Virus record (IMG/VR): IMGVR_UViG_3300036770_007567
Location: 1 to 33,184 of that record
Direction: 5' to 3' (one strand)
Length of the DNA stretch: 33,184 nucleotides
Source of the DNA: a virus
Of this stretch, positions 25,787-29,833 are shown one piece after another. A program made the translations under genes and the position numbers. Below the pieces are notes generated by a model. It ran no database searches. It was given only the letters and a program-made list of their open reading frames with translations, and was not told the DNA's origin. The stretch's first letter is position 1. Each line of letters begins with the position of its first letter.

Positions 25787-27259
25787 ATGATCCTGACCTA
25801 CATTATGTTTGTAGTGGCGCTGAGTCTCAGCGCAGTGGCCGCATATTATTCCATTGTGGGTCTCGCCGCGATCTTTTCCGCCGCCACTATACCCATCATC
25901 ATCATGGGCAGCATGTTGGAAGCGGCCAAGCTCAGCACCACGCTGTGGCTGCATGAATACTGGAGCCGATGCCGCTGGATAATGAAACTGTATCTGGTGC
26001 CGGCAGTGATCGCCTTGATGTTCCTGACCAGCATGGGCATCTTTGGTTTCCTCAGCAAAGCGCACCTGGACCAGGCCGTGCCCACGGGTGACGTGGCTGC
26101 CCAGGTGTCATTGATAGATGAAAAAATCCGTATCCAGCGCGAGTACATCCAGACCGAACGTGACAATATCACCGCAGCCCGCAACACCCTTTCACAGTTG
26201 GACGCGCAAGTCAACGAACGCTTGAGCCGAGGCACCACCGAAAGCAGCGCAGAACGCTCGGTGCAGATCCGGGCTCAGCAGCGCACCGAACGGCGTGCTG
26301 TGCAACGCGACATCGATGAATCACAGAAGCGAATCGAGGCCATCAACGCCGAGATAGCCCGGCTCAACGAGCAGCGAGCACCCATCGCAGCCGATCTACG
26401 CAAGGTCGAGGCCGAGGTTGGTCCCATCAAATACATAGCGGCCTTGATCTATGGCGACAACCCCGACAGCAACCTCTTGGAGCGAGCTGTGCGTTGGGTC
26501 ACGATCCTGCTGGTGGCCGTGTTTGATCCCTTGGCCATCATGATGCTGCTGGCCGCCACAGAAAGCCTAAAATGGCACCGTGAGTCCAAGACCGCAGCCG
26601 TGACGCCAGTGCCTGACGCGCCGGCAGAGCCGCCCCAGCCCGAGACACCGCCCGCAGAACCAGATCTCCCAAATGTGCCCGCGGTATTGTATATCAATGA
26701 TGATCTCATCAAACCTTTGGCAGAACCACCTCCGGATCCAACACCCGAGCCCGAGCTGCCTAGCCAAGCTGACAAGCCTGCCGTGGTGGTAGCGGTACCC
26801 ACCGACACCACGCGCGACATGGAAGATGATGAGGATGCCATGGGTACCCATCCCGTGATCAAGCAAGTCAAGGCTCTTTGGAAGGCCGACCATCCCAAAG
26901 CCACATTGAAAGAACAACGTAGATTGGTGGAAGAAGGCAAGATAGCCGGCCTGCCATGGATGGACTATCTTGATGATCCTCGCATCCGGCGGGACGTGAC
27001 ATTTGGAAACTACTTCCCAACACAGGCCCTCAAAGGCGACATGTTCCTGGCCACCAATGGCATGCCCACACAGTTGTTCAAGTTCAACGGCGATAGATGG
27101 ATACAGGTTGACAAAGAGCAAACTGACAGTTATACTTACAATCCTGCTTATATAGATTTCTTGATAGACCGATTGAGCTCGGGCCAGTACGACGCTGATC
27201 TACTGACCGAAAGTGAGAAATCCAAGATTGAAGCCAAACTACGTCCGGAGGGCAAGTGA
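25787..27259 (+). CDS. Membrane protein with long coiled coil, 490 aa
   Basis: Two or three membrane spans lie in residues 1-90 (ILTYIMFVVALSLSAVAAYY, then LYLVPAVIALMFLTSMGIFGF). A long charged coiled coil follows (about 105-215: IDEKIRIQREYIQTERDNI onward), then another span near 235-260 (VTILLVAVFDPLAIMMLL). A Pro/Glu-rich linker (about 275-340) joins a C-terminal soluble domain. The shape recalls DUF4407-type proteins, and cyanophage homologues have been called virion proteins. It may sit in the host membrane, perhaps in DNA entry or exclusion of other phages; this is inference. ATG 25787 has no ribosome binding site. The clpX promoter lies inside its 3' end and its stop overlaps the clpX start. 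Confidence 0.72.
   Translation: MILTYIMFVVALSLSAVAAYYSIVGLAAIFSAATIPIIIMGSMLEAAKLSTTLWLHEYWSRCRWIMKLYLVPAVIALMFLTSMGIFGFLSKAHLDQAVPTGDVAAQVSLIDEKIRIQREYIQTERDNITAARNTLSQLDAQVNERLSRGTTESSAERSVQIRAQQRTERRAVQRDIDESQKRIEAINAEIARLNEQRAPIAADLRKVEAEVGPIKYIAALIYGDNPDSNLLERAVRWVTILLVAVFDPLAIMMLLAATESLKWHRESKTAAVTPVPDAPAEPPQPETPPAEPDLPNVPAVLYINDDLIKPLAEPPPDPTPEPELPSQADKPAVVVAVPTDTTRDMEDDEDAMGTHPVIKQVKALWKADHPKATLKEQRRLVEEGKIAGLPWMDYLDDPRIRRDVTFGNYFPTQALKGDMFLATNGMPTQLFKFNGDRWIQVDKEQTDSYTYNPAYIDFLIDRLSSGQYDADLLTESEKSKIEAKLRPEGK
27108..27136 (+). promoter_or_regulatory. Sigma70 promoter for clpX (TTGACA-17-TATACT)
   Basis: A perfect -35 TTGACA (27108-27113) and TATACT (27131-27136) are exactly 17 bases apart, inside the 3' end of gene 25787-27259 and about 115 bases before clpX. 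It would allow clpX and S21 to be expressed early, apart from the late gene upstream. Confidence 0.68.
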
Positions 27260-28455
27260 GCGAAGCCAAGGCCAAGACATACGAAAACACATGTAGTTTT
27301 TGCGGCAAGCACAAGGACATTGTTTCCAAACTCATAGTAGGTGACGGAGTCGCAATATGTAATGAATGCGTGACCCTCTGCACCGACCTTCTTACCAATC
27401 CTGAGGATGTCGAACAACCAACTAGCATCGACAATCTAGATCCACGCAGCCTCAAGGCCTTCCTGGATCAGTTCATCATAGGTCAAGATGCTGCCAAGGT
27501 GGTTCTGTCGGTGGCGGTGGTCAACCATTACAAGAGACTAAACCGGCCCAAGTCGGCACCGGAACTGGAAAAAAGCAACATCTTGATGCTGGGACCAACT
27601 GGGTCGGGCAAGACCCTGCTGGCGCGTACCATAGCACGTTTCTTGGATGTTCCGTTTGTGATCGCGGATGCCACCAGCCTCACCGAGGCCGGTTATGTGG
27701 GCGATGACGTGGAAAGCCTGATCAGCAGACTGTACGCTGCTTCAGGTTATGACATCAAACGCGCAGAACGTGGCATCGTGTTTGTGGATGAGATTGACAA
27801 GATATCGCGCAAGAGCGAAAGCACCAGCATCACTCGCGATGTCAGTGGTGAAGGTGTGCAGCAAGCTCTGCTGAAGTTGGTGGAAGGCACAGTATGCCGT
27901 ATACCAGGGCAAGGCGGTCGCAAGCATCCCGGCGGTGACATGCTGGAGATCGATACCAGCAACATCCTGTTCATAGCGGGCGGCGCTTTCGTGGGGCTGG
28001 ATGGTGTCATACAGCGACGGTTGCATGGTAGCAGCATAGGATTCACCAATCCTGTCAAGACGCAAAACGATGTGCACCTAGATCAAGTGTCACCAGATGA
28101 CTTGGTAAGGTTTGGTCTGATCCCGGAGTTTGTGGGACGTTTTCCCACCACTGTGGCGCTGAGACACTTGACCGAGGATGACATGGTACGCATCCTCACC
28201 GAGGTCAAGAACAACTACATCCAACAATATCAGTGGTTGTTTGCCCAAGATGGCATCACGTTGGAAGTGGCACCTGATGCCATCTCGGCTGTGGTGCAAC
28301 GGGCCATAAAGACTGGCACCGGGGCCAGGGCATTGCACAGCGAACTGGAAAAGGTGCTGATGCCACACATGTACGAACTTTGCTCGTATCGCGAGCGAGA
28401 CTTGAAACAGCTTAACATCGACGCTGATCAAGTAAATAATCCCACAACAGTATAA
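27256..28455 (+). CDS. clpX: ClpX, AAA+ unfoldase of the ClpXP protease, 399 aa
   Basis: ClpX unfolds tagged proteins and feeds them to ClpP. The four zinc ligands C13, C16, C35 and C38 form the substrate/adaptor domain. The motor has Walker A GPTGSGKT (113-120), pore loop GYVGD (146-150), Walker B VFVDEID (175-181), RKH pore loop (222-224) and sensor-2 region GTGARAL. The IGF tripeptide (261-263) that docks ClpX onto ClpP is kept, so it should couple to host ClpP; no clpP is in this window. It is about 25 residues shorter than E. coli ClpX, mainly at the ends. The start is GTG 27256, overlapping the upstream stop. S21 follows after 10 bases. Confidence 0.97.
28431..28438 (+). promoter_or_regulatory. 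Possible late promoter before S21 (AGTAAATA)
   Basis: AGTAAATA lies in the last codons of clpX, 27 bases before ATG 28466. It could give late expression of S21 in addition to read-through from the clpX promoter. A chance match within coding sequence is possible. Confidence 0.4.
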
Positions 28456-28465
28456 CGAGGAGACT

Positions 28466-28687
28466 ATGGCACTTTACGGACGTTCAGTTTTGGTCACAGA
28501 TGGCAACGTAGAAAAGGCTCTGCGCAAGCTCAAGAAAAAAGTACAGGCTTCGGGTGTGCTGCTGGATCTGCGCGAGCGCGAACAATATATCAAACCCACC
28601 ACACGGCGCAAAACAGCTCGCGCCCTGGCCAAGAAACGCTGGGAACGCTACGTCAAGAGTCAGCAGTTACCGCCCAAGAGCTGGTAA
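28466..28687 (+). CDS. rpsU: Ribosomal protein bS21 (phage-encoded), 73 aa
   Basis: bS21 sits on the small ribosomal subunit near the anti-Shine-Dalgarno region and helps in starting translation. The sequence keeps the family pattern: VEKALRKLKKKVQASGVL, then LREREQYIKPTTRRK, and a basic helix ending AKKRWERYVKSQQLPPKSW. The C-terminal SQQLPPKSW resembles the SQxLPKKL ending of betaproteobacterial S21, suggesting host origin. A phage copy could replace host S21 and favour phage messages. GAGGAG precedes ATG 28466. It is coupled to the next gene (TAATG). Confidence 0.93.
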   Translation: MALYGRSVLVTDGNVEKALRKLKKKVQASGVLLDLREREQYIKPTTRRKTARALAKKRWERYVKSQQLPPKSW

Positions 28688-28941
28688 TGTATCTTGAATT
28701 CCGCCTTCCCACTGGGGCTGGTGGACAGGCGGCTGCGCACGCCAACTATCTGCTGTGTGAAAAATTAGTACGCTGGAGCGAGCGACATGGTGTGCCCATG
28801 CGGCGCAAAACCATCAAATACACCCTGCGTGTGACATTCGACGACGAACGTTTCTACAGTTTCTTTGCCACTACCTGGCAAGCCAGCAATGACTGGCAGC
28901 GATTCCGTGTTATATCTGACCTAAACAATAGACAGGACTGA
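28687..28941 (+). CDS. Small basic hypothetical protein, 84 aa
   Basis: This protein starts MYLEFRLPTGAGGQAAAHANYL, has a basic centre (RHGVPMRRKTIKYTLRVTF) and an aromatic end (FYSFFATTWQASNDW). No family is recognised. Its start overlaps the S21 stop, so the two are made in step; a role near the ribosome is conceivable but unsupported beyond position. It ends just before the hsp20 promoter. Confidence 0.66.
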   Translation: MYLEFRLPTGAGGQAAAHANYLLCEKLVRWSERHGVPMRRKTIKYTLRVTFDDERFYSFFATTWQASNDWQRFRVISDLNNRQD

Positions 28942-28951
28942 CGATTTCCTG

Positions 28952-28959
28952 TATAAATA
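28952..28959 (+). promoter_or_regulatory. T4-type late promoter for hsp20, exact TATAAATA
   Basis: This exact consensus shares the 14-base context TCCTGTATAAATAT with 7638-7651. T4 geometry predicts transcription from 28965, the first base of a hairpin in the hsp20 leader. Confidence 0.75.
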
Positions 28960-28964
28960 TGTTT

Positions 28965-29023
28965 GTAGTGCCGATGGTCGGGCTACATCTAAGTCATTCT
29001 TGCTTAACAAAGGAGAATCTACA
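28965..29023 (+). promoter_or_regulatory. ROSE-like RNA thermometer in the hsp20 leader
   Basis: The second hairpin pairs ATTCTTGCTT (28996-29005) with AAGGAGAAT (29010-29018) around the loop AACA. All nine pairs form, with one bulged G at 29001+1 in the UUGCU segment facing the ribosome binding site. A bulged-G U(U/C)GCU opposite AGGA is the hallmark of ROSE elements that control small heat-shock genes. A first hairpin (GTAG..CCGA with TCGG..CTAC, 28965-28986) starts at the predicted +1. Two hairpins, the last hiding the Shine-Dalgarno, is the minimal ROSE layout. Folding was done by eye. Confidence 0.68.
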
Positions 29024-29464
29024 ATGACTCGTATCACATCTTTTGATCTCACCCCCTTCTACCGCAATTCAGTTGGTATCGATCGCTTGTTCGATCGCAT
29101 CGTGACACAGATCGATGCTGCTGCTGCCGCGGGCAACTATCCTCCCTACGATATCGTTCGTACCAGCGAGGACAAGTACGAAATCCGCATCGCTGCCGCT
29201 GGTTTCCGCCAGGGCGAAATCGATGTTGAATTCCATGAAGGCAAGCTCACCGTGCGCGGCGAACGTCAGGAAGAAGTTCGCCCCGAAGTTGAGTATCTGC
29301 ATCACGGCATCAGCAATCGTTCGTGGGTGCGTACTTTCCCCTTGGCTGACTATGTGGAAGTCAAAAACGCCACTATGAACGAGGGCATCCTGACTGTAGA
29401 GCTGGAGCGCATCCTGCCCGAAAGCCAGAAGCCCAAGAAGATTGAGATCGCTTACCAGAAGTAA
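29024..29464 (+). CDS. Small heat-shock protein Hsp20 (IbpA-like), 146 aa
   Basis: Hsp20 proteins hold unfolded proteins without ATP. The alpha-crystallin domain spans about residues 40-130: YPPYDIVRTSEDKYEIRIAAAGF opens it, followed by KLTVRGER, the strand RTFPLADYVEV, and NATMNEGILTVELER near its end. The C-terminal KKIEI is the IxI-type tail that fits neighbouring subunits. Such genes are common in T4-like cyanophages, where they may help capsid assembly. ATG 29024 has AAAGGAGA seven bases upstream; a start at 29000 would fall in the leader hairpin. Confidence 0.94.
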   Translation: MTRITSFDLTPFYRNSVGIDRLFDRIVTQIDAAAAAGNYPPYDIVRTSEDKYEIRIAAAGFRQGEIDVEFHEGKLTVRGERQEEVRPEVEYLHHGISNRSWVRTFPLADYVEVKNATMNEGILTVELERILPESQKPKKIEIAYQK

Positions 29465-29469
29465 ATTGG

Positions 29470-29477
29470 CGTAAATA
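29470..29477 (+). promoter_or_regulatory. Candidate late promoter before clpS (CGTAAATA)
   Basis: CGTAAATA lies just after hsp20. T4 geometry predicts transcription from about 29483, the first G of the hairpin at 29480-29504, leaving a leader of about 36 bases to ATG 29519. Confidence 0.5.
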
Positions 29478-29479
29478 AC

Positions 29480-29507
29480 GTTGGGGGGACCACGTCCCCC
29501 CAACTTT
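29480..29507 (+). terminator. Strong G/C hairpin between hsp20 and clpS
   Basis: GTTGGGGGGAC (29480-29490) pairs perfectly with GTCCCCCCAAC (29494-29504) over 11 bp with a CAC loop. Only three T follow, so it is a weak terminator by sequence; it may stop hsp20 messages in part or act as a stabilising 5' hairpin on a clpS message. Confidence 0.6.
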
Positions 29508-29518
29508 GAGGATTCAAT

Positions 29519-29833
29519 ATGTCACAGACTGAAACAACCACCAAGACACGTGTGACCCCTGGACTGGCCCTGCAGGAGCCGCCCATGTTCAAGGTCATAT
29601 ACATCAATGACAACACAACCAGCATGGAGTTTGTGGTTGGGAGCCTTGTGGAACATTTTGACTATACCCCTTTGACCGCAGAACGAATCACCATTGACAT
29701 CCACGAAGCAGGATCAGCGGTGGTGGCAGTGCTGCCTTATGAGATAGCCGAACAAAAGGGCATAGATGTCACAGTTGCAGCCCGGCACGAAGGTTATCCC
29801 CTGCAGATCAAACTGGAACCTGAAAGCAATTAA
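29519..29833 (+). CDS. clpS: ClpS-like N-end-rule protease adaptor, 104 aa
   Basis: ClpS hands proteins with N-terminal Leu, Phe, Trp or Tyr to ClpAP. The core keeps the family signature: FKVIYINDN followed by TSMEFV, with N30 and D31 and M36 at positions that bind the N-terminal residue, and H62 (DIHEAGSAVV) as the third contact; the C-terminal YPLQIKLEPE matches YPLxxxLE. One conserved Asp is Asn32. The 20-residue N-terminal arm (TKTRVTPGLALQEPP) is what normally enters ClpA. No clpA lies here, so host ClpA or the phage ClpX would be the partner. GAGG at 29508-29511 precedes ATG 29519. Confidence 0.9.
   Translation: MSQTETTTKTRVTPGLALQEPPMFKVIYINDNTTSMEFVVGSLVEHFDYTPLTAERITIDIHEAGSAVVAVLPYEIAEQKGIDVTVAARHEGYPLQIKLEPESN

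Follow-up and report, generated by a model that had tools for sequence, protein, structure and literature searches.

In Escherichia coli, the small heat-shock protein IbpA binds the 5′ UTR of its own mRNA and represses its translation, an activity that requires Arg93 and the aromatic residue at position 34 and is relieved by aggregates; IbpA also lowers translation of sigma-32 (PMC10474464). The ibpA genes of Pseudomonas carry ROSE-like thermometers of ∼60 nt with two hairpins, in which hairpin I is stable and hairpin II sets U(U/C)GCU against the Shine-Dalgarno (SD) sequence (PMC3669281). The DNA analyzed here (the window, 33,184 nt) is a viral record with a T4-like gene set, including ribonucleotide reductase and DNA ligase, and its hsp20 gene resembles both systems: it encodes an IbpA-like protein with the conserved arginine and aromatic residue, and it follows a ROSE-type leader with the Pseudomonas layout, containing the same bulged module that is read in the E. 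coli ibpA leader. Unlike the Pseudomonas elements, this one precedes a phage gene, has a promoter that appears sigma-70-like rather than sigma-32-like, occurs before dnaK as well and exists in a bulged-A variant. In contrast to E. coli IbpA, the phage element is also borne by dnaK mRNA, changes of the bulged base track another residue, 54, and the phage protein is proposed to bind the leader.

The window hsp20 gene (29024–29464, plus strand; AUG at 29024) encodes a small heat-shock protein of 146 amino acids (Pfam HSP20, E 2e-17; predicted structure, pLDDT 72), in which A59, R99, and Y39 correspond to IbpA A54, R93, and Y34, respectively. It lies in a proteostasis cluster (27256–29833) that comprises a ClpX-like ATPase (27256–28455), a ribosomal protein S21 homolog (28466–28687), an 84-amino-acid open reading frame, hsp20, and ClpS (29519–29833). 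Upstream of hsp20, on the plus strand, a stable hairpin 1 (28964–28987) is formed by pairing of 28964–28969 with 28982–28987 and of CCGA (28971–28974) with UCGG (28978–28981), with a bulged G at 28970. Hairpin 2 (28996–29018) closes the SD sequence AAGGAG (29010–29015); its arms, AUUCUU-[G29002]-CUU (28996–29005) and AAGGAGAAU (29010–29018), are joined by an AACA loop, and G29002 is bulged within UUGCU opposite AGGA. The leader has the features by which ROSE-like elements are recognized, namely a 5′ UTR with two to four hairpins (here two), a U(U/C)GCU imperfectly paired to the SD in the 3′-proximal hairpin with an unpaired G, and a small heat-shock gene downstream. This agrees with the original prediction, which had placed such a leader, with these hairpins and this bulged G, at 28965–29026; a literature search covering mostly open-access papers likewise found no described phage ROSE element.

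Both hairpins of the window leader are recovered by RNAfold; in the minimum free energy structure the outer pairs switch to GUCAUU/AAUGAC and the start codon is also taken up. The folding energy is no better than that of shuffled sequences (z −0.52, 49/200), so folding alone leaves chance as a possible explanation for this leader. The window contains a single copy of the motif CTTGCTTAA(N0-8)AGGAG, which none of 100 shuffles has, and chance is eliminated as an explanation once the leader is compared with those of its relatives. The SD is predicted to become exposed slowly as the temperature rises, from 0.5% at 20°C to 2.7% at 42°C. Because the same energy model misses the behavior of the known E. 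coli ibpA thermometer, used as a control, it argues neither for nor against thermosensing. Against a closed switch, the SDs of the elements are predicted at 20°C to be no better concealed than those in the remaining leaders of these phages (median free 0.027 versus 0.022, p 0.64), and some members, including Melnitz and the dnaK leader of L016, are predicted to be ∼90% open at every temperature. The core of hairpin 2 is only marginally stable, with medians of −1.0 kcal/mol at 37°C and −3.4 at 20°C, and hairpin 1 has a median of −9.5 kcal/mol.

In all sets that we sampled, phage hsp20 usually has the two-hairpin leader, with a bulged base in each hairpin and the SD closed by hairpin 2 through U(U/C)GCU. 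Among 42 viral loci fetched by Hsp20 protein alone, 41 have upstream sequence and all 41 carry the two hairpins, read by eye. All 78 cyanophage loci picked with P-SSM4 Hsp20 also have the element, 60 by pattern and 18 by eye, the latter with GUAC-G-C(UUCG)G-GUAC or alike. In the converse direction, a gene-blind scan with CTTGCTTAA(N0-8)AGGAG matched loci most of which have hsp20 directly downstream, and some dnaK. Loop lengths vary, so that MAFFT misaligned the SD in its alignment of all leaders, and we turned instead to a covariance model whose seed leaders had loops of equal length; this model finds the element in nearly all loci from the pattern scan, with few other matches.

The pairing is conserved beyond the letters. 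Across 92 distinct leaders, all eight pairs of hairpin 1 show two-sided changes, and pairing holds in 88.9% of cells, compared with 75.1% in shuffled controls and no more than 63% in slid ones; the covariation score is 0.379 versus 0.132 for shuffles (0/500). Hairpin 2 is otherwise constrained by the SD, but its outer pair is seen as U-A, C-G, and A-U, and its U·G pair becomes C-G in seven leaders, the Y of U(Y)GCU alternating between U and C opposite the SD G (85 versus 7). Compensating changes, which the original prediction had proposed to look for among related phages, are present.

Cultured phages with the element come from several groups and are Melnitz, S-CAM8, S-RSM4, Syn33, P-SSM4, P-HM1, Syn19, S-SSM6a, and P-RSM4, together with the jumbo phages Phosso and Paride; it is absent from cultured phage S-TIM5. 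The cyanophage genes belong to the same family as that of S-ShM2, whose Hsp20 structure is available (7ck4), and the leader is not annotated in the cultured cyanophage records examined. In P-HM1 (L170, 544–597), the annotated GTG start of hsp20 falls inside the element, and translation probably begins at the ATG at locus position 595. Two loci carry the element before a rubredoxin-like gene, the first of an operon that includes hsp20 (L069, 2228–2279; L136, 4042–4093), and there the leader of hsp20 itself retains only hairpin 2. Element-like leaders also precede a 90-amino-acid phasin-like open reading frame (L052, 2805–2853, minus strand) and a 95-amino-acid acidic one (L114, 1296–1354), the latter with UUUGA in place of UUGCU in hairpin 2.

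The same layout is found in the Rfam consensus of ROSE_3 (RF02523), where hairpin 1 (GCC..GG) and hairpin 2 both contain the bulged base, and the consensus of ROSE (RF00435) shares the bulged base of hairpin 1 with the phage leaders. A search of the window with the Rfam ROSE models, the check put forward with the original prediction, nevertheless gave no match to RF00435, RF01832 (ROSE_2), or RF02523 up to E 10. None of the phage leaders tested rises above the Rfam gathering cut-off: with ROSE_3, for which this is 43, the score is 34.1 bits for Melnitz, which infects Methylophilales, and 24.0 bits for L151. The E. coli ibpA control scores 100.4 with ROSE_2. With our covariance model, the phage-type element is detected in hsp20 leaders of Methylophilaceae and streamlined betaproteobacteria (L182, L187, L188, and L195–L198; E 4e-8 to 6e-7). 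L182 carries the element on its own hsp20 and differs from the phages in its promoter, which by eye is sigma-32-like (CTTGAA..CCCCAT).

Upstream of hairpin 1 in the window lies TATAAATA (28952–28959, plus strand), which can be read as a −10 box, a T4-type late box, or both. The original prediction took it for a T4-type late promoter, a reading that is not supported as it stood: a −35-like box, TAGACA (28929–28934, plus strand), lies 17 nt before it, and a TTGACA-like box, TTGACA itself in most relatives, is conserved at this spacing with 0–2 mismatches at 21/21 element-linked TATAAATA sites of the window clade. Mean mismatches to TTGACA are 3.3 at seven other TATAAATA sites and 3.5 at random positions. 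The simpler reading is a sigma-70-like promoter, which may double as a late promoter.

The element is shared with a second chaperone gene. Phage dnaK genes that follow it occur in several loci (L016, 983–1042; L017, 985–1045; L018, 988–1049; L061, 718–777; L160, 10557–10615, minus strand; and L201–L280), usually ∼2 kb upstream of hsp20. It is found before 78/78 phage dnaK genes chosen by DnaK protein. In 48 of these 78 leaders the bulged base is G, in U(Y)GCY by pattern; in the other 30 it is A, in U(Y)ACU by eye, and there the bulge of hairpin 1 is likewise A, as in L248, AGCAAGU-A-CCUAAUGG-ACUUGUU. Phages of the bulged-A type, which carry UYACU, fall outside the U(U/C)GCU definition of ROSE-like elements. 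Many dnaK and A-type leaders have a third hairpin, of the GGGCAUAGUGCCC type, between hairpins 1 and 2 (L201–L280, e.g., L213 and L257).

The bulged bases of hairpins 1 and 2 agree within a leader. Among 315 unique leaders, 238 are G/G and 52 A/A, the remainder being unresolved or mis-parsed and none truly mixed; apparent mixed-bulge leaders (the CTTGCTTACTT leaders, the CUCACUU leaders, and those with a mismatch in hairpin 1) proved by eye to be parse errors. In a wider parse of 380 leaders the bulges again agree once exceptions are read by eye, except in L531. The type is also identical between hsp20 and dnaK in 64/64 viral loci with both genes (38 G, 26 A). Such concerted change of the bulged base, across two mRNAs and among hairpins with no pairing between them, would have its natural cause in a common reader.

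The only Hsp20 column that fully separates the two types is that of IbpA A54 (in AVAGF), which is Thr in 28/28 A-type and 0/192 G-type proteins. Loci fetched later (L505–L585) agree, with 32 new T/A and 24 new A/G combinations of residue and bulge by parser, two more T/A by eye, and five more T54 A-type relatives of L531; the hand-corrected totals are ∼65 T/A and ∼209 A/G. The sole mixed genome, L531 (2680–3241), has G then A in its hsp20 leader and A then G in its dnaK leader, and its Hsp20 has Ser54 (AVSGF); it looks like an intermediate between the two types. Ser54 seems compatible with G, since the S54 proteins of L025, L028, L071, and L083 accompany a G-type hairpin 2. On an Hsp20 tree built without column 54, a single A-type origin is not rejected (p-AU 0.27), whereas the DnaK tree forces three A-type changes and narrowly rejects one clade (p-AU 0.046). 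Considered together, the trees leave the association with one to three supporting events in addition to the intermediate, and, with so few independent switches, residue 54 might do no more than mark a lineage. No A-type leader was found among the 30 best loci retrieved with an A-type Hsp20 query from 369 genomes of one bacterial class. One bacterial Hsp20, L602, has T54 with a G-type hairpin 2, so either the residue-54 code is not universal or the L602 gene is read by another cellular small heat-shock protein.

Taken together, these data fit a model, which we consider probable though by a modest measure, in which phage Hsp20 recognizes the bulged purine and represses hsp20 and dnaK through a two-hairpin, ROSE-type switch that is released by heat or aggregates. 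Transcription from the sigma-70-like promoter would begin near hairpin 1, which is stable, while hairpin 2, over the SD, would be marginal by itself. The IbpA-like Hsp20 would bind the leader through the bulged purine of both hairpins and keep hairpin 2 closed, repressing hsp20 and likewise dnaK where the phage has one. Heat would melt hairpin 2 and unfolded protein would titrate Hsp20; either would open the mRNAs, such that both chaperones are produced on demand. We favor this view, with Hsp20 closing the switch and heat or aggregates opening it, because the phage parts (an IbpA-like protein, a ROSE leader, a marginal hairpin 2, and chaperone targets) fit the E. coli IbpA scheme. The residues needed there for repression are largely conserved, position 34 being Tyr or Phe in 105/105 phage Hsp20 proteins and position 93 Arg in 97/105. 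The remaining eight have Lys, and their phages still carry the leader; as R93K abolishes repression in E. coli IbpA (PMC10474464), these eight count against repression by Hsp20.

A plain ROSE thermometer, in which hairpin 2 melts by itself with no protein reader and the bulges switch together through the shared ancestry of an hsp20-dnaK cassette, seems unlikely. The U(U/C)GCU architecture is that of bacterial ROSE elements, the stability of hairpin 2 is in the right range, and the short two-hairpin leaders of Pseudomonas are experimental thermometers for which hairpin II alone is enough (PMC3669281). However, local melting leaves unexplained why the bulge of hairpin 1 follows that of hairpin 2, why that of dnaK tracks that of hsp20, and why both are linked to Hsp20 residue 54, and bacterial IbpA does bind its own leader (PMC10474464). 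We think it doubtful, to a still greater degree, that another RNA-binding protein of host or phage reads the bulged hairpins while residue 54 hitchhikes. That two mRNAs have one type in all four of their hairpins points to a common reader without giving its identity, and the independent switches are few; yet the link to residue 54 held in loci fetched after it had been stated, the only intermediate residue in the clade (Ser) falls in the only mixed genome, and A-type phages that lie apart on the DnaK tree sit closer together, if weakly so, on the Hsp20 tree.

The strong conservation of CTTGCTTAA as sequence could also point to a DNA or coding feature (a promoter, operator, or leader peptide) rather than an RNA structure, an explanation to which we attach very little credence. 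The pairing of hairpin 1 is kept while its letters change, and this covariation already refutes it; the promoter boxes, which vary from phage to phage, are situated upstream. A leader peptide from the TTG at 29000 was rejected, as loop lengths vary by non-multiples of three and the reading frame is not kept.

The preferred reading, recognition of the bulged purine by Hsp20, can be extended to a code, for and against which we see the case as evenly balanced: a single Hsp20 residue (Ala, Gly, or Ser for G and Thr for A) would read the bulged purine of the ROSE hairpins, phage hsp20 and dnaK, at times with other genes, would form a two-gene chaperone regulon sensing aggregation and heat, and a switch of the code would have exchanged G and A in every hairpin of the two mRNAs along with the residue itself. 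The dnaK leaders, the bulged-A variant, and the link to residue 54 go beyond the original prediction, which covered one gene. The link between residue and base is directly testable by a one-residue, one-base swap.

The gene hsp20 is a reported core gene of T4-like cyanophages (as cited in PMC9004378), and a ROSE-type leader on nearly all of their hsp20 genes would mean that Hsp20 is produced as needed. The concerted switch of bulge and residue provides natural evidence on how small heat-shock proteins recognize ROSE RNA, a question posed by the finding that IbpA binds its own leader. If true, reading of the bulge by Hsp20 would account both for the bulged G kept in ROSE hairpins and for the conservation of the non-melting hairpin 1. 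Our comparisons show the phage leader to be a ROSE-type element, shared with phage dnaK, in which natural variation points to Hsp20 as the probable reader.
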